A stretch of DNA of 64,000 bases, from the NCBI RefSeq assembly GCF_001655615.1, contig NZ_CP011567.1, positions 2,241,001-2,305,000 on the forward strand, read 5' to 3'. This DNA comes from Pseudomonas sp. GR 6-02 (GTDB lineage Bacteria > Pseudomonadota > Gammaproteobacteria > Pseudomonadales > Pseudomonadaceae). The notes beneath the pieces were generated by a model. The model did not search any database. It was given only the letters and a program-made list of their open reading frames with translations, and was not told where the DNA came from. Position numbers and translations under genes: made by a program. Below, piece by piece: positions 42,593 through 51,012 of the stretch. Position 1 is the stretch's first letter, and each line of letters starts with the position of its first letter.

Positions 42593-42770
42593 AGTGAGGG
42601 CGATAAATTTCAATCGCGCCCTTGCCGCATAACGACCCGCAACATCGCGGGAAGCAGTGTGCCGGTTCGATCACTGCACATTGCTTGCCCGCTGGTCGCC
42701 GGCCTTTGAACTGTGTGGGGGGGAGACGGTCAATTATTCCGTGCAATATCAACCTCCACGGAACCTCACC

Positions 42771-43412
42771 ATGCTATTAAAAAACAAGAGTTTTGTTGCC
42801 GTCATGTCCTGCGTGATGATGCTTGCAGCCGCCCCGTTATTGCCCGCTGAACTGTCCATCATGAGCTCCGCCTACGCGAAGGATGGTGGCAATGGAGGTG
42901 GTGGCGGCGGTGGTAACGGTGGTGGCAATGGCGGCGGTAACGGCGGTGGTCATGGTGGCAACGGCGGTTCCGGCCATTCCGGCGGCGTCAGTAGCAATGG
43001 CCGTGGCGCAGGCTTGAGTAGCGACCATGTCGGTCTTGGTGCAGGCTTGAGTGGCACCCATGTCGGCCGTGGTGCAGGCTTGAGTGGCACCCATGTCGGT
43101 CGTGGTGCAGGCTTGAGCAGCGACCACGTCGGCCGTGGCGCAGGCTTGAGTGGCACCCATGTCGGCCGTGGCGCAGGCTTGAGCAGTGATCACGCCGGCA
43201 AAGCCGTCCGGGACCGTGGCGTCAATGGCAACCACTTTGGTAGTGAACGTAACAGTGACCGTGGCCATGGCGCAGTCACTTCGGGCATTGCGCATTCCAG
43301 GGACACGCGAGGAGTTGCCAAGGCCTCTGCCATTTCGGCCACTACGCCTGGCGATCACAACACGAAAGGGTTGAGCAGCGCTCGTACTTCGATCTCGAAA
43401 CGACTGGATTAA
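42771..43412 (+). CDS. Secreted glycine-rich protein with six 11-residue repeats
   Basis: 213 residues from ATG 42771; a longer frame from 42657 lacks a signal peptide. Signal peptide about 1-36 (AYA before KDGG). Then a Gly/Asn tract (about 38-75) and six tandem copies of an 11-residue unit of the form GRGAGLS(GT/SD)HV at residues 77-142. A polar Ser/Arg/His tail follows. No family is recognised. Low-complexity repeats with alternating GTH and SDH suggest a surface or matrix protein. It follows the CigR-like gene by 178 bases and ends at a strong terminator. Confidence 0.75.
   Translation: MLLKNKSFVAVMSCVMMLAAAPLLPAELSIMSSAYAKDGGNGGGGGGGNGGGNGGGNGGGHGGNGGSGHSGGVSSNGRGAGLSSDHVGLGAGLSGTHVGRGAGLSGTHVGRGAGLSSDHVGRGAGLSGTHVGRGAGLSSDHAGKAVRDRGVNGNHFGSERNSDRGHGAVTSGIAHSRDTRGVAKASAISATTPGDHNTKGLSSARTSISKRLD
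42999..43196 (+). repeat. Six tandem 33-bp coding repeats
   Basis: Six units of 33 bases, in frame with the secreted protein, each beginning ggccgtggcgcaggcttgag or a near variant. Differences are mostly silent or switch GTH to SDH, consistent with recent expansion. Confidence 0.9.
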
Positions 43413-44233: not shown

Positions 44234-44428
44234 TCAGGGCGTTTGCGGCTTGTCCGGGGCGGTCAGGCCAGCCTGGATGCGTTGATAAATTTCTTCGCGA
44301 TGCACCGCAACGTCTTTCGGGGCGTTGATGCCAATCCTGACTTGCTGGCCGCTAACGCCCAGGATGGTGATCGTAATGTCATCACCGATGTTTATGCTTT
44401 CACCGACTTTGCGGGTGAGTATCAGCAT
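44234..44428 (-). CDS. csrA: CsrA/RsmA-family RNA-binding regulator (RsmE-like)
   Basis: 64 residues from ATG 44428, opening [19 protein letters not shown], with [21 protein letters not shown] as the RNA-contacting segment including the conserved Arg44. Binds GGA motifs in mRNA leaders and is antagonised by Rsm sRNAs. Not in the alaS/lysC context of RsmA, so it is a paralogue; the TAPDKPQTP tail fits RsmE best. AAGGAG ribosome site 7 bases ahead. Confidence 0.93.
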
Positions 44429-44678
44429 GGTTTTCTCCTTGATTGCTTTGTAGGGCACCTGATTCGGACAGTGCAGAGGTCGGTATTAGATATAGATTAG
44501 TGCGAAGTTTCACGGTTTGGGTGCCTCTTTCTGACGCGCAGATGCTGCATTAATTCCCAAGGTGTAACTATACAGAGGCCGCCACCATCATTCTCGTTGT
44601 TTTGAGCCCATTTTGCGGCACTCGGGATGGATCCATGGATGTTAAAATCGCCGCTTTAAGCATTCGGAGGAAAGCGTT

Positions 44679-45139: not shown

Positions 45140-46603
45140 TCACATCAAGTTATTTTGCGGCAACCCCAGCAGGCCGGTCAGGGTGTTGATGATCGCTTGT
45201 TGCCGGGCACGGTCTGTCTGGTGCACGGCTTCCGCGGCGGCGACATCAGCGTCGCAGTGGGGGCACGTCACTTCGTGTGCATGGATGTACTGCAAGCAGC
45301 CACGACACAGCGCCAGTTGCGGTGGAATACGTCCTTCGTCAGGCGATTTCTGGCCCTGGTTCGCCCAGGCCAGTTTGATCACCTGGCCGCTGTCGCTGAC
45401 GCTGTTCACCTTCTCGCCGGTATCGATGCGCTCGGTAATCAGATCAAAACGTCCGACGGCGAAGGAGGTTTTTGCCGCATCCTCGAGCTTGACGATGCGC
45501 TCGCGTAGCCCGCGTTTTTGCAGGTCCAGCGCGCGGTAATGGCAGTAGGGATTATTGCCGGGTTTGCCGAGCAGGGAGTGCGAGGTCCAGGTGCAGCCGC
45601 CACGGCAGACGTCGTTGTAGTAACAGCCTCGGCAGTAGCCCCACAGGTCGTCGACCGACCGCAGGCGGCCAAAGTGCATGCCTTCGCTGTAATGCCAGAT
45701 ATCGTGCAGGCTCATGTTGCGTACGTTGCCGCCCGAAAACCCCACCGTGGCCAATGACGGGCAACCCTTTACCGTGCCGTCGGCTTCCAGCGCCAGCACA
45801 GTCTGGCCGGCGGCGCAGCCACTCCAGTGCACGCGCTCGTCGCCGAAGCCACGCCACATGTGCTCGTAAGGGCCGTAGTAACCGATGTTGTTGCCCACGT
45901 TCATCAGCAGGCCGCGATCAACCCCTTCGCGGTAGAGGCGCGCCAGCAACGGCATCACTTCCAGCAGTTGGTAGGGTTGCAACAGCAGCTCCGGGTGATC
46001 GACGGCATTGCCCATGGCGACCGTCAGCTGGATCTGCCAATGAGTGGCGCCGAGGTCGATGATCAGGTCCATCAGCTCGGGCAAGTCGGGCAACGTGGCC
46101 GCGCCGATTTGTGTGTTGACGCTCACCGCAAGCCCGGACTGTTTGGCGCGTCGCAGGGTGTCCACCGCCTTGTCGAACGAGCCCGGAACATTGCGCACTG
46201 CGTCATGCAGTGGGGCCAGTCCATCCAGTGACACACCGACGCCATTGAGTCCGGCGTCCACCGCTGCCTGCATTTTTGCGGGCGTCAGGTTGCGCCCACC
46301 CGTTTGTATCGCGCAATACATGCCGTGATCGTGGATAGCCTGGATCAGTTGGGTCCAGTCCTTGCGCAAATAGGCTTCACCGCCGATCAGGGTGATCTCG
46401 CGGGTGCCGAGTGCCGCCAGGGAATCGATGACGTCCAGGCACTCCCGGGTGTTCAGTTCATCGGGGCGTCGATGGCCGGCGCGTGAGCCGCAATGCAAGC
46501 ATTTGAGATCGCAAGCCAGAGTGATTTCCCAGACCACATGCACCGGCACGTAGCGTTTGAGGTCGGTTTCACTGAGGTAGCGGGCAGGGCGACTGTCTGA
46601 CAT
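45140..46603 (-). CDS. Radical SAM/SPASM maturase associated with GDL/DUF1843 proteins
   Basis: 487 residues from ATG 46603 with AAGGA site. The radical SAM cluster CX3CX2C is C31-C35-C38, with the SAM motif IGGEAY at 73-78. A complete SPASM domain follows: C263-X12-GX4-C281, then C324, C327, C333, C337 and C354, enough for two auxiliary [4Fe-4S] clusters. A C-terminal four-cysteine ribbon (C433, C436, C447, C450) is extra. SPASM enzymes modify peptides or proteins at unactivated carbons. Last gene of a minus-strand operon with three DUF1843-domain proteins. I recall a database family called GDL-motif peptide-associated radical SAM/SPASM maturase that fits; not verified here. Confidence 0.88.
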   Translation of the reverse strand: MSDSRPARYLSETDLKRYVPVHVVWEITLACDLKCLHCGSRAGHRRPDELNTRECLDVIDSLAALGTREITLIGGEAYLRKDWTQLIQAIHDHGMYCAIQTGGRNLTPAKMQAAVDAGLNGVGVSLDGLAPLHDAVRNVPGSFDKAVDTLRRAKQSGLAVSVNTQIGAATLPDLPELMDLIIDLGATHWQIQLTVAMGNAVDHPELLLQPYQLLEVMPLLARLYREGVDRGLLMNVGNNIGYYGPYEHMWRGFGDERVHWSGCAAGQTVLALEADGTVKGCPSLATVGFSGGNVRNMSLHDIWHYSEGMHFGRLRSVDDLWGYCRGCYYNDVCRGGCTWTSHSLLGKPGNNPYCHYRALDLQKRGLRERIVKLEDAAKTSFAVGRFDLITERIDTGEKVNSVSDSGQVIKLAWANQGQKSPDEGRIPPQLALCRGCLQYIHAHEVTCPHCDADVAAAEAVHQTDRARQQAIINTLTGLLGLPQNNLM

Positions 46604-46720
46604 GGGAAATCCTTGCGCACCAACGCGTGCGCGGCACGAATCCATCGAAGTGTTCGCGCCTTCCTTGAGTCAATGGCGCGACCGGATTTACCTTTTGTTG
46701 TTGGTCTATAGCGCGGAGTC

Positions 46721-46748
46721 TGTGGGAGCGGGCTTGCCTGCTCCCACA
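46721..46748. repeat. REP palindrome inside the GDL operon
   Basis: tgtgggagcgggcttgcctg followed by CTCCCACA is a near-perfect palindrome in the 170-base gap between the first DUF1842/1843 gene and the maturase gene. It may lower maturase expression. Confidence 0.75.
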
Positions 46749-46773
46749 GGGGGTTGCGCTTAACTGCCTGGGG

Positions 46774-47355
46774 TTAGCGGGCCTCCAGGCGGGCGATTTC
46801 AGCGTTCAGCTGCTCCAGAGCGCTGCGCAGGGCACCGCTGTTGGCCAATTGCTGTTCACCCTGGCTCACCACGGACTTCAGTTGCGCCAGGTCACCGCTG
46901 GTTTGCGCTTGCTGTACCGCGACGGCATAGAGCGGCACCGCATGGTGCGGATGCTCTGGGCGCTCAATCACTGGGGCCTGGCTGACAGCTGCGTGTTTCA
47001 CGTAATGCCAGATACCCTGGTCCTGGTACTTGTAGTCGACATAACCGCTCGCCCAGTCGGCGCCTAAAATGCCTTTCAAGCCGAAAGTCTGGGCGATCTG
47101 GCTGAGAGGGCCGCTCGGGCTGCCCGCCAAGGTGAGGATGATGTGGTTTTCGGCCGTCGGCACCAGTTTGGCCTCGGAGTATTCACCCCATACACGGGCA
47201 CGGAAGTTGAGAGGCGGATAGGTGCTTTGGAAAATGCTGGCAACCCCGCTGACTTTTTTCTTTACGGTATCTACCAGCAGGTCCAGGGTTAAAACCGGTG
47301 CGCCCAATAGGTGACTACTGACATTCAGGCGGGTATGAAAAAGTCCGATTGACAT
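46774..47355 (-). CDS. DUF1842-DUF1843 protein, GDL family member 1
   Basis: 193 residues, no signal peptide. Residues about 1-125 form a beta-rich domain (DUF1842-like) with WGEYSEAKLVPT and GADWASGYVDYKYQDQG. A linker follows, then the shared 55-residue C-terminal domain (139-193) beginning AVPLYAVAVQQAQTSGDL and ending EIARLEAR. GGGAG ribosome site ahead of the ATG. It lies between the second family member and the maturase. Function unknown; likely substrate or partner of the radical SAM enzyme. Confidence 0.8.
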   Translation of the reverse strand: MSIGLFHTRLNVSSHLLGAPVLTLDLLVDTVKKKVSGVASIFQSTYPPLNFRARVWGEYSEAKLVPTAENHIILTLAGSPSGPLSQIAQTFGLKGILGADWASGYVDYKYQDQGIWHYVKHAAVSQAPVIERPEHPHHAVPLYAVAVQQAQTSGDLAQLKSVVSQGEQQLANSGALRSALEQLNAEIARLEAR

Positions 47356-47409
47356 GGTGCTACTCCCTTATTTGTATTCTGGACAACTCGGGCATGTTTC
47401 GTGAGCGGG

Positions 47410-48045
47410 TCAGCGGCGTTCCTGCCGGCTGATTTCGCCCTTGGCCGTTTCAAGCGCGCTCTGCAGTTGGGGTTGCTGATCCAGTTGTTGTTGGGCCAGG
47501 CGGGCCAGGTTTTTCATCTGGGCCAGGTCACCGCTGGCAATGGCACTTTGAATCGGTGCGGCGTACAGCGGCATGATCGGTGGATAGGCTGGAATGACCG
47601 GGCCGGGCTCCAAAGGCACCGATTTATAAGCGTTGGAGGGTACCGCCTCGACAAGATGAGCGGGAGCAGTGACCTGGACCCACCGTTCACCATTGAAGTA
47701 CTCGTAATTGGCGACGCCTTCTCTCCAGTCGCTACCGACCACCAAGAGCAGCTTGAAATTCACGATTGAGTTCGAGCCTGGGCCGCCGTTATTACCTTGA
47801 GCGGTGATCAGGATCTTGCTGACGCCAGGGCTCATGACCGTCAGGTAGGTGTATTCGCCCCAGACATCGGAGTGCACATCCAATGGCGGGTTAGTGGCCT
47901 GAGTAATTTCGGCAGTGCCGCTTACCGTTTGATCTGGGGTAAAAACCAGAAGATTGAGTGCCAGGTTTTGTGCGCCCGCGGCCGAAGTACCAATTCGATA
48001 GCAGAGTGGGAACAAGCCGACAGGTTGTTGATTGGAACCAGACAT
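47410..48045 (-). CDS. DUF1842-DUF1843 protein, GDL family member 2
   Basis: 211 residues from ATG 48045, chosen for the GGAGG site. N-terminal DUF1842-like domain with WGEYTYLTV and VGSDWREGVANYEYFNGERW corresponds in order to member 1. A Pro-rich linker (GPVIPAYPPIMPLY) leads to the 55-residue domain at 157-211 with SGDLAQMKNL and the GEISRQERR end. Separated by 54 bases from member 1 and 41 bases from the 62-aa protein upstream, so one operon. Confidence 0.8.
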   Translation of the reverse strand: MSGSNQQPVGLFPLCYRIGTSAAGAQNLALNLLVFTPDQTVSGTAEITQATNPPLDVHSDVWGEYTYLTVMSPGVSKILITAQGNNGGPGSNSIVNFKLLLVVGSDWREGVANYEYFNGERWVQVTAPAHLVEAVPSNAYKSVPLEPGPVIPAYPPIMPLYAAPIQSAIASGDLAQMKNLARLAQQQLDQQPQLQSALETAKGEISRQERR

Positions 48046-48086
48046 AATTATTGCCTCCATTGCAATAAGGGGCGTGGAAATAGCTA

Positions 48087-48275
48087 TTAGTGCTTTTCCA
48101 GGCGTGCGATTTCCTTAACCAACTGCTCGTAAGCAGTTTTTAGCTCTTTATTTTCTGGTGTGGATGCATCGCGTTGTTTCAACAGCGTCTTCATTTGCGG
48201 CAGGTCGCCTGCCTTGATCGCGCCTTGGATGGCCACCCCATAGGGGGGCATGCTATGGCGAGTTGAAGTGCTCAT
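48087..48275 (-). CDS. Short DUF1843 protein, GDL family member 3 (candidate precursor peptide)
   Basis: 62 residues from ATG 48275 with a GGAAGGA site; an upstream in-frame start would add 13 residues without a better site. After seven polar residues the rest is the 55-residue shared domain: MPPYGVAIQGAIKAGDLPQMK, then a charged helix ending EIARLEKH. First gene of the minus-strand operon. Size, position and pairing with a SPASM enzyme make it the best candidate for a ribosomally made, modified peptide, but a regulatory or adaptor role is possible. Confidence 0.8.
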   Translation of the reverse strand: MSTSTRHSMPPYGVAIQGAIKAGDLPQMKTLLKQRDASTPENKELKTAYEQLVKEIARLEKH

Positions 48276-48532: not shown

Positions 48533-49504
48533 TCAAACAGCGCTGACCTTGTGCCCGAACCGTTCCCGATACACCGAAGGCGGCACGCCGACCACGCTGC
48601 GAAATGCCACCCGGAAACTCTCCACCGAGCGATAACCGCAGTGCTGGGCAATCTGGTCGGTGTTTTGATTCGTACTCTCCAGCAGCTCGCGGGCCCGGGC
48701 CAGGCGTTCATGCTGCAGCCACGCTTTGGGGGGCATACCGCTGGCTTCGGTGAACCGCCGCAGAAACGTGCGCTCACTCATGGCCGCCTCGCTGGCGAGG
48801 TCGCGAACTTCCAGCGGTTCATGCAGACGTTCCCGCGCCCACTGCATGACCCGCGACAGATCGCTGCGCGGTGTCGGGCTGACCGGTGACGGAATGAACT
48901 GTGCCTGGCCGCCGGTGCGTTGCGGCGACATCACCAACCGCCGGGCCACCGAGTTGGCCACCTGCGTGCCGAAATCCCGCGCGACCAGATGCAGGCAGGC
49001 ATCGATGCCGGCGGCGCTGCCTGCCGAAGTGATCAACTGACCAGAATCGACATACAGCACGTCCGGATCCACCAGAATGTTCGGGAAGCGCTCGGCCAGT
49101 TCAGCGGTGTAGCGCCAATGGGTGGTGGCGCCGTGACCGTCCAGCAAACCGGTGGCCGCCAGTACGAATACCCCGGAACAGATCGACAGCAACCGCGCGC
49201 CTCGGGCATGGGCCTGGCGCAGCGCGGCGAGCAAGGGCTCCGGCACCGGTGCGCTGCGGTCGCGCCAGCCGGGGATGATGATGGTTCGGGCGCGCTCAAG
49301 CAGTTCCATCCCGCCGTCGGCCAGCACCTGAATGCCGCCCATGGCGCGCATCGGCCCTTGGTCGACGGCGACGATGCGGTGCTCGTACCAAGGGAAATCG
49401 AACTCTGGCCGCGCCAGGCCGAAGATCTCCACGGCAATGCCGAATTCGAAGGTGCAGAGGCCGTCGTAGGCCAGAATCGCGACTAAACCTGGGGTGGGCT
49501 GCAT
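48533..49504 (-). CDS. ftrA: FtrA-like GATase1/AraC transcriptional regulator
   Basis: 323 residues from ATG 49504. N-terminal DJ-1/PfpI-like domain (about 5-185) with SICSGVFVLAATGLL and a C-terminal AraC helix-turn-helix pair (about 225-315: LASEAAMSERTFLRRF and QIAQHCGYRSVESFRVAF). GlxA/FtrA subfamily regulators sense small metabolites. Divergent from the rhodanese gene, which it probably controls. A longer frame adds 16 residues. Confidence 0.88.
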   Translation of the reverse strand: MQPTPGLVAILAYDGLCTFEFGIAVEIFGLARPEFDFPWYEHRIVAVDQGPMRAMGGIQVLADGGMELLERARTIIIPGWRDRSAPVPEPLLAALRQAHARGARLLSICSGVFVLAATGLLDGHGATTHWRYTAELAERFPNILVDPDVLYVDSGQLITSAGSAAGIDACLHLVARDFGTQVANSVARRLVMSPQRTGGQAQFIPSPVSPTPRSDLSRVMQWARERLHEPLEVRDLASEAAMSERTFLRRFTEASGMPPKAWLQHERLARARELLESTNQNTDQIAQHCGYRSVESFRVAFRSVVGVPPSVYRERFGHKVSAV

Positions 49505-49605
49505 TTGGCGGAAAATTCCCGGTGAGTGTCTTGTGCGCCACTGTAGCGGCAAGGCCGGAGCAGATAAAGTTTTCTCACACCCATTGAGACTTTGGAGTAC
49601 AGCCC

Positions 49606-50040: not shown

Positions 50041-50691
50041 CTAAATGTGGCGATTAGCTGATGAAGCGCTCCACCATCCATCCAGCGTCACCCGCAACCA
50101 GTCAAACACCGTTGCATAAGCGGCGCTGTCTTGCGGCTCCCGGGGCAACGGTGATTCCTCGCCAAAGTGCTCATTGAGGATCGCCACCGATTCAGCATTC
50201 CATTCCGGGTGGAACTGCAACCCCACCCGCGTCGGGCCAACGCGATACATCTGCTGCTCACAAACCTCGCTGCTGGCCAGCAACTGCGCAGAGGGCGGCA
50301 GATCGATCGCGTCTTCGTGCCATTCCAGCACCTTCAGCGTCTGGCCATCGGCAAAGGTCACGGTAGTCCAGCCGGTTTCGGTGTGAGCCATCCGCCGCAC
50401 ATTGCCGCCCAGGCTCAGCGCCAGCAACTGCGCCCCCAGGCAAATCGCGAACACCGCCGCGCCCTGATCCAGGCTGCCCGCCAGCCACTGACGCTCTGTT
50501 TCCAGCCATACCGGCCCGGCACCTGATTCATAAGGCCCACCCAATAGAATCAGCGGTGTCGCGCTCACCGACGGCAACTGACCGAGGTCGGCGCGAAACA
50601 CGTTCAGGGTAATGCCTCGGGACCGGGCCCATTCGGCAATGGCGCCGGGGCCTTCGGCAGGATGGTGCTGGATCAGATTCAGCGCGGGCAT
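50041..50691 (-). CDS. Class I glutamine amidotransferase
   Basis: 216 residues from ATG 50691 (a GTG lies three bases before). GuaA-type fold: ILLGGPYESG near residue 49, nucleophile cysteine in AICLGAQLLALSLGG near 84, and catalytic His-Glu in LQFHPEW near 160. The complete triad suggests active amide hydrolysis, perhaps of gamma-glutamyl amines, as relatives are PuuD-like or GuaA-like. No synthetase partner adjacent. Confidence 0.88.
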   Translation of the reverse strand: MPALNLIQHHPAEGPGAIAEWARSRGITLNVFRADLGQLPSVSATPLILLGGPYESGAGPVWLETERQWLAGSLDQGAAVFAICLGAQLLALSLGGNVRRMAHTETGWTTVTFADGQTLKVLEWHEDAIDLPPSAQLLASSEVCEQQMYRVGPTRVGLQFHPEWNAESVAILNEHFGEESPLPREPQDSAAYATVFDWLRVTLDGWWSASSANRHI

Positions 50692-51012
50692 CACGTTTCT
50701 CTTGTGGGGGCGGTTGGCGGGTCAATGTGAGGCAAAAAATGGTTCATCGCCAGTGCGACTCTTCGATCGGATCAGTACCCGAAAACGTGTAGGTTTTGTC
50801 TCAAGCAAAGGATTGTCCTACAGTCCTTGCACCACCTCGGAGCACACTTCAAGTGCCTCGAATCCCTCGGCTTCTTTTTTATAAGTATTTGTCGCCTAAA
50901 CACAATTTGCCCTCCTGTAGCCGCTCTAGACTGCCGGCCACTTCGGTCTTCACTAGCCGAAAGTTGCCAATCGAAAGCTGCCAATAAAAGCCTCCGCACA
51001 CAGGAGTTATAA
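50692..51012. promoter_or_regulatory. Intergenic region before the amino-acid binding protein
   Basis: A 321-base gap that must contain the promoter of the binding-protein gene. Imperfect direct repeats cgaaagttgccaatc / gaaagctgccaataa lie around 50957-50991. No clear sigma70 pair and no gene I can support. Confidence 0.4.

Follow-up and report, generated by a model that had tools for sequence, protein, structure and literature searches.

A radical SAM/SPASM enzyme and three DUF1843 proteins of Pseudomonas sp. GR 6-02 form a probable protein-modification system of the splicease kind

Four minus-strand genes at 45140..48275 of a window from Pseudomonas sp. GR 6-02 (the whole stretch of 64,000 nucleotides (nt) analysed; GCF_001655615.1, NZ_CP011567.1, positions 2,241,001-2,305,000; coordinates are window positions throughout) encode, in order, proteins of 62, 211, 193 and 487 amino acids (aa), the first three with a DUF1843 (GDL) domain and the last a radical S-adenosylmethionine (SAM)/SPASM enzyme. 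On balance the operon probably encodes a splicease-type system for protein modification, for which a mass change of -135.07 Da is predicted, and by this evidence it would represent a protein-directed branch of that kind with a predicted reaction. The initial annotation, made from the same DNA, had placed the four genes correctly and proposed a probable protein- or peptide-modification system; family scores, trees and sequence identity support this proposal and sharpen it to an enzyme of the splicease clade. The system is real, conserved and already grouped by NCBI, and what is added here is the link to splicease chemistry and the analysis of an X-Tyr-[Gly/Ala] site. The system may already be covered by Scott et al. 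2022.

The enzyme is a full member of TIGR03913 (rad_SAM_trio), a model whose name carries no reaction, and scores 1047.6 bits against a cut-off of 591.75 with residues 3-479 aligned to positions 1-477 of the 477 in the model. It has the superfamily signature of a CX3CX2C motif and seven SPASM cysteines, and these residues, together with a C-terminal CX2C-X10-CX2C, are invariant across 19 aligned family members, so that the full set of radical SAM and SPASM cysteines noted initially is confirmed. The linked GDL proteins expected for TIGR03913 are present as three genes directly upstream. Many relatives are labelled at source as Y-X(10)_GDL-associated radical SAM protein; the pairing of enzyme and DUF1843 is therefore already known to annotators, and the label itself points to a tyrosine ten residues before the GDL.

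The NCBIfam model ranked second for the enzyme is TIGR04103 (436 bits, with the third at 162), which we take to correspond to IPR026482. The reverse also holds, as the TIGR04103-like enzymes of loci L084, L092 and L093 and the deeper enzymes L095 and L096 have TIGR03913 in second place (374-424 bits, next 151-164); among the first three, only L084 exceeds the TIGR04103 cut-off. The prototype splicease PlpX is placed in IPR026482 (PMC11002830). The window enzyme shares the SPASM layout of the PlpX-type spliceases and is 47% identical over 377 aa to cyanobacterial L084, which lies beside a Nif11-like precursor with the core QPLYGV. In phylogenetic trees the GDL enzymes, the PlpX-type enzymes and the small deeper group join apart from other SPASM enzymes with support of 98/99, of 96 in another tree and of 100 in a third containing four outgroup rows, and the GDL enzymes form a clade of their own (98/99). 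All three groups keep residues I73, A77, G102, N163, Q209, P210, K279, T340 and R367, which few or none of 12 outgroup rows have, and a GGEA in place of GGEP is likewise shared by the groups and lacking in most or all outgroup rows. The nearest outgroup to the splicease clade comprises the enzymes of L100-L103, which come from small (~2 Mb) genomes of the cyanobacterial set and score 180-190 bits against TIGR04103.

At XYG, PlpXY cuts out the equivalent of tyramine (C8H9NO), naturally at MYG and LYG and also at an engineered GYG; it needs no leader and accepts a tag of ten residues as well as sites within proteins, and the tags listed derive from a PlpA2 core (PIRPLYGLPI, or engineered PIRPGYGLPI) (PMC10533398). 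The corresponding sites of the window are PYG in the 62-aa protein and LYA in the 211- and 193-aa proteins, and DUF1843 starts such as PLYGVPIQ and PLYAAPIQ closely resemble the PlpA2 tags. Whereas the substrates of the window are proteins with a C-terminal helical follower, PlpX-type substrates are Nif11-like leader peptides with a GG and a C-terminal core. A TIGR04103 search of 146 genomes from the phylum of the Calothrix host gave some SPASM-type match in 129 and a score over the cut-off in eight (L114-L121), all with Nif11-like precursors ending in GG and YG cores, for example IRPLYGVVIWPP and IQPLYGVVWPPY. Seven of the eight contain a [QR]PLYG[VI] core, and L120 has MLYGG and QIYGS. The precursor of L117 passes the NCBIfam Nif11 leader model (53.9 bits, cut-off 32.3), while that of L121 falls below it (29.8) and passes Pfam Nif11 (26.5, cut-off 23.8). 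Twenty cyanobacterial splicease contexts, picked by Nif11-like words with Tyr-Ala allowed, have Tyr-Gly in every case, preceded by Leu in 15 and Met in two, with Pro at -2 in 12 and Val at +2 in 14. PLYG[VI] sites are found in both the DUF1843 and the Nif11-like substrate sets, and PLYGV occurs only twice in the 269,474 aa of 878 background open reading frames (ORFs) from the loci.

Several ORFs adjoin relatives of the enzyme. ORFs of 59-73 aa with a conserved LLPRSxWxS...RxKxALDRIExEAG end follow the PlpX-type enzyme at L114:8401-8622, L117:6296-6478 and L119:6629-6808; the two that were scanned match no Pfam or NCBIfam family, and the PlpY partner might be encoded by such an ORF. In genome G281 an ORF of 274 aa (L123:3400-4224, minus strand), in which APMYGMP recurs, adjoins a TIGR04103-like enzyme of 615 bits, under the cut-off, and looks like a multi-core splicease precursor. 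A 112-aa protein (L124:4264-4602, minus strand, G269) adjoins the deeper enzyme L095 and combines an N-terminal CX2C...CX2C like that at the C-terminus of the GDL enzyme with a hydrophobic stretch and ACYGAPPP; it is possibly a third, lipoprotein-like substrate type.

All three non-enzyme products exceed the Pfam DUF1843 (PF08898) cut-off of 23.3 bits, and 16 of 17 matches among relatives of the 62-aa protein are annotated as DUF1843. The translations reproduce the gap-free alignment of the 55 C-terminal residues reported initially, with P3, Y5, Q10, A12, G16-D17-L18, Q20, K22 and an E-I-x-R-x-E end, and Pfam adds DUF1842 at the N-terminus of both the 211-aa and the 193-aa protein, which are 40% identical to each other. 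Gene starts follow the initial annotation, and longer ORFs from upstream start codons are possible for three of the four genes.

The residue that stands out in DUF1843 is a tyrosine. From 238 domain rows, those with E <1e-5 (<1 for L053) were kept at one per ORF, which left 229 domains, 198 of them unique; the nine rows removed include three matches of 11 residues (L049, L050, L053) that are N-terminal PPYG tags, the rest being weak. The third domain residue, ten before the GDL, is Tyr without exception in the 198 unique domains; Leu (124), Pro (70) or Met (4) stands before it and Gly (100) or Ala (98) after it, with PYG occurring 70 times and PYA never. The GDL letters are less conserved (G in 187, D in 147, L in 176). 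The loci L049, L050 and L053, of Chromobacterium amazonense, C. sinusclupearum and C. alticapitis, have a decayed GDL and no separate small DUF1843 gene was found in them, yet all three sites are kept: the first DUF1842 protein carries a PPYGTALQQAQ tag close to its N-terminus, and the remaining two sites are PLYA/PMYA and TLYA. Eight DUF1842 genes lie outside operons in system-bearing genomes, and the seven that were read lack both DUF1843 and [LPM]Y[GA] (L165-L171, in five Chromobacterium, one Trinickia and one Nitrospirillum genome). Invariance of the Tyr, survival of the tag where the GDL has decayed and its absence from the DUF1842 proteins outside operons together indicate that the X-Tyr-[Gly/Ala] site is what selection protects. 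Where Pseudomonas has LYA, Burkholderia and Paraburkholderia have LYG at the corresponding sites, a swap suggesting that Tyr-Ala and Tyr-Gly may be treated alike.

Enzyme and DUF1843 also occur together. GTDB species genomes were scanned with the 19-row enzyme alignment and the best 80 of 433 confirmed loci were kept: 44 from Pseudomonas, nine from Chromobacterium, seven from Caulobacter, four from Nitrospirillum, two each from Trinickia, Burkholderia and Paraburkholderia, one each from Granulicella, Insolitispirillum, Niveispirillum, Azospirillum, Tistrella and Calothrix (13 named genera), and four without a genus. At least one DUF1843 domain lies upstream of the enzyme in all 80, and the 81 operons including that of the window hold three domains in 68 cases, two in six, one in five and four in two. 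DUF1842 is present in 19 of 26 genomes searched, and the seven without it (hosts of L059, L061, L063, L065, L067, L074 and L083) keep DUF1843 beside the enzyme; the constant pair is therefore DUF1843 and the enzyme. The four of 198 Pseudomonadaceae genomes with TIGR03913 over the cut-off are the same four that have three full-length DUF1843 matches each, and in all 40 whole genomes searched, which host 40 of the 80 loci, the listed DUF1843 matches fall without exception inside the range of the enzyme locus. The initial annotation had held that a wide occurrence of DUF1843 without a maturase would speak against the system; this was looked for in part, in these 198 and 40 genomes, and was not seen there. 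Across the phylum, DUF1843 with its Tyr part was found in three of 398 genomes (the window's own, G030 and G718), each time beside a splicease-clade enzyme, TIGR03913 itself being searched in the 198 family genomes and five chosen ones rather than in all 398. In G718 (L134:7404-9105, plus strand) a single DUF1843 (36 bits) stands beside a splicease-clade enzyme of 497 bits, below the TIGR03913 cut-off. Overall, the TIGR03913 score and the recurrence of the enzyme with DUF1843 upstream are far above chance.

Five candidates for DUF1843 without a maturase (G080, G116, G498, G528 and G507; three in the phylum set and two in the family set) were rejected. They match PF08898 with 21.8-27.2 bits, G080 and G498 exceeding the cut-off, covering no more than positions 13 or 14 to 50, in frames of 742-774 aa; lacking the Tyr part, they are read as chance matches. 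One that was read, L129 of G498, resembles monomeric isocitrate dehydrogenase.

It is proposed that the TIGR03913 enzyme recognises the helical DUF1843 follower, whose helices would present the tag, and has as its target the exposed X-Tyr-[Gly/Ala] immediately ahead of the GDL helices, where tyramine would be excised from the backbone to leave a reactive ketone (ketoamide) inside the protein. An AlphaFold model of the 211-aa protein has beta strands at 11-131, a low-confidence linker and helices from 162, with Tyr161 between the linker and the first helix. The DUF1842 structure 8t0b (Q63NT7) differs from the proposed products in being recombinant from E. coli, with its DUF1843 part not resolved; because the enzyme is also absent from the text of that paper, the chain is probably unmodified (PMC10994174). 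The products would be intact soluble proteins with an electrophilic ketoamide, two of them with a beta-barrel domain, and the operon encodes neither cleavage nor export. The initial observation that it contains no protease or exporter holds, and no protease or transporter for leader removal or export of the kind seen with ribosomally synthesised and post-translationally modified peptides is linked in it.

The window family also differs from the PlpX type in its Tyr-Ala beside Tyr-Gly, in Pro before the Tyr, in the zinc-ribbon-like end of the enzyme and in that no PlpY was recognised. The C-terminal CX2C-X10-CX2C falls beyond the end of the alignment with L084, and Pfam gives this C-terminus zinc-ribbon matches below threshold only. 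In G718 the zinc-ribbon-like part is a separate ORF that overlaps the enzyme end by four bases and is similar to that of the window enzyme (49% over 35 aa). The zinc ribbon may stand in for the partner protein PlpY. Uses that the ketoamide could have include, for example, inhibition of proteases or covalent capture during stationary phase. Inhibition of proteases has been described for the products of spliceotide pathways (PMC10373908, PMC11117315). The wider picture stands at somewhat under even chance: alpha-keto-beta-amino acids, including proline-derived ones and formed at both Tyr-Ala and Tyr-Gly, would reside in cytoplasmic proteins that stay whole and are never exported, a helical follower and a built-in zinc ribbon would replace leader and PlpY, and the cell would produce these proteins with a built-in electrophile in stationary phase or when quorum sensing is active.

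A number of observations weigh against this assignment. The enzyme misses the TIGR04103 cut-off (436 against 725 bits), the placement of the GDL enzymes as sister of the PlpX-type clade has a support of 76/72 only, and the deeper group (L095, L096) may be drawn toward the outgroup by long branches. The three DUF1843 proteins have no Nif11 or NHLP match (Pfam E up to 1, NCBIfam E up to 0.1), no match to an RRE, of which PlpY is a truncated form, is listed for the C-terminal 113 aa of the enzyme, and no PlpY-like protein was recognised in a comparison that used no reference PlpY sequence and covered neighbours of at least 90 aa. Tyr-Ala makes up 98 of 198 sites as against 20 of 20 Tyr-Gly in the cyanobacterial contexts, Tyr-Ala sites alone are found in three of 81 operons (L059, L065, L074) when PPYG tags are counted and in six without them, and the divergent G718 system has Tyr-Asp at the site. 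Counts across loci are not independent, since 44 of the 80 are from Pseudomonas, and the AlphaFold model of the enzyme (predicted local distance difference test score 67.5) is too weak for claims about the active site. Tag use is moreover context-dependent: PlpXY modified two of 16 tag-and-place combinations in FtsZ and neither of those with the LYG tag (PMC10533398).

Several of these points would also fit other chemistry at the same tyrosine, such as a cross-link, oxidation, decarboxylation or cleavage without excision of tyramine, because the enzyme has moved from PlpX in allowing Tyr-Ala, in accepting Pro before the Tyr and in having a zinc ribbon instead of PlpY. The frequency of Tyr-Ala, the Tyr-Asp of G718, the separate clade of the GDL enzymes and the extension past the L084 alignment speak for this alternative, but the 47% identity to a PlpX-type enzyme, the retained signature residues of the clade and the PLYG[VI] cores in both substrate sets speak against it, and it is considered unlikely. 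Modification of the GDL helices or of some other residue, with the Tyr motif serving merely for docking or helix capping, is highly improbable: the NCBI model is named after the GDL, which is well conserved in most members, but less so than the Tyr, and the loci L049, L050 and L053 retain the Tyr sites despite its decay. Of the two roles initially offered for the GDL domain, the modified part is not favoured, as the X-Tyr-[Gly/Ala] ten residues upstream is invariant and outlives it, and a follower or recognition helix appears the better fit. Least probable of all is a role of DUF1843 in self-assembly or as a scaffold, an idea prompted among structural biologists by the paralogous copies in one operon, with some other substrate for the enzyme. 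The protein is described as a probable monomer without oligomers, though it was made in E. coli and is probably unmodified, 'radical SAM' being absent from the text of the paper (PMC10994174); DUF1843 also co-occurs with the enzyme, and three operons (L059, L065, L074) contain just one DUF1843 gene.

The expression of related genes has been recorded in two species. Three DUF genes of Chromobacterium subtsugae are strongly induced in early-stationary, quorum-sensing-positive cells (log2 4.9, 5.1 and 5.3; PMC12114271), and such genes are in the most-induced list of stationary-phase B. thailandensis (values 8.0, 7.7 and 7.5; PMC12322963). In the window the gene for the enzyme is set apart from those for the substrates by an inverted repeat (Table 1), part of a 191-nt stretch (46600-46790) with a fold z-score of -5.1; the 17-nt arm of the repeat has 22 copies in the genome and the reversed control none. 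The repeat is presumably a repetitive extragenic palindromic (REP) element, and its hairpin might lower the enzyme relative to the substrate.

Neighbours were compared across the 80 loci with a rough method that picked ORFs of at least 90 aa greedily by length, as a result of which the enzyme ORF is missing from its own cluster in 13 loci and several clusters are antisense ORFs; by this rough comparison no protease or exporter is common to several genera. Ten neighbours scanned in the window include no exporter. One of them, encoded at 50041-50694 and not part of the operon, scores 55.9 bits for GATase and has a weak match to Peptidase_C26 (22.6, cut-off 20.5); it is taken to be an amidotransferase. 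A LysR-like gene near the enzyme is represented by 16 Pseudomonas and two Burkholderia ORFs. Upstream of the operon and in the same direction, a GlxA-like regulator (DJ-1/PfpI and AraC-type HTH) is encoded at 48533-49552 (minus strand), with relatives at most 6 kb from the enzyme in two Pseudomonas and three Nitrospirillum loci. A small CsrA-family gene (44234-44458, minus strand, 97.7 bits) lies ~0.7 kb past the 3' end of the enzyme gene, and an ORF at 42657-43412 (plus strand) with glycine-rich stretches and repeated GRGAGLSGTHV units has no Pfam match.

Table 1. Positions of the operon features in the window
Feature	Position	Strand	Basis
62-aa DUF1843 protein, presumed substrate 1, MSTSTRHSMPPYGVAIQ...	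48087..48275	-	Pfam PF08898 49.5 bits
Pro-Tyr-Gly codons of 62-aa protein, predicted modification site	48237..48245	-	sequence; Tyr invariant in domain set
211-aa DUF1842 + DUF1843 protein, presumed substrate 2	47410..48045	-	Pfam PF08896 113.2, PF08898 57.2 bits
Leu-Tyr-Ala codons, residues 160-162 of 211-aa protein	47560..47568	-	Y161 invariant in 27-row alignment
193-aa DUF1842 + DUF1843 protein, presumed substrate 3	46774..47355	-	PF08896 107.5, PF08898 68.7 bits
Leu-Tyr-Ala codons, residues 142-144 of 193-aa protein	46924..46932	-	Tyr invariant in domain set
REP-type inverted repeat (RNA hairpin), between substrate genes and enzyme gene	46720..46749	.	fold score and genome repeats
487-aa radical SAM/SPASM enzyme, TIGR03913, splicease clade	45140..46603	-	1047.6 bits; trees; identity to PlpX-type enzyme
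Radical SAM CX3CX2C (C31, C35, C38)	46490..46513	-	sequence; invariant in family alignment
SPASM segment, seven cysteines (C263, C281, C324, C327, C333, C337, C354)	45542..45817	-	PF13186 30.6 bits, residues 263-328
C-terminal zinc-ribbon-like CX2C-X10-CX2C (C433/436, C447/450)	45254..45307	-	invariant in family alignment

For a family known by its motif only, and for DUF1843 and DUF1842, the analysis provides a prediction of -135.07 Da at one named residue. If it is true, backbone splicing by radical enzymes would serve larger proteins and not peptides alone, in Acidobacteriota and Alphaproteobacteria as well as in pseudomonads, Chromobacterium and relatives of Burkholderia, and the family would offer new short-tag enzymes for ketone labelling.

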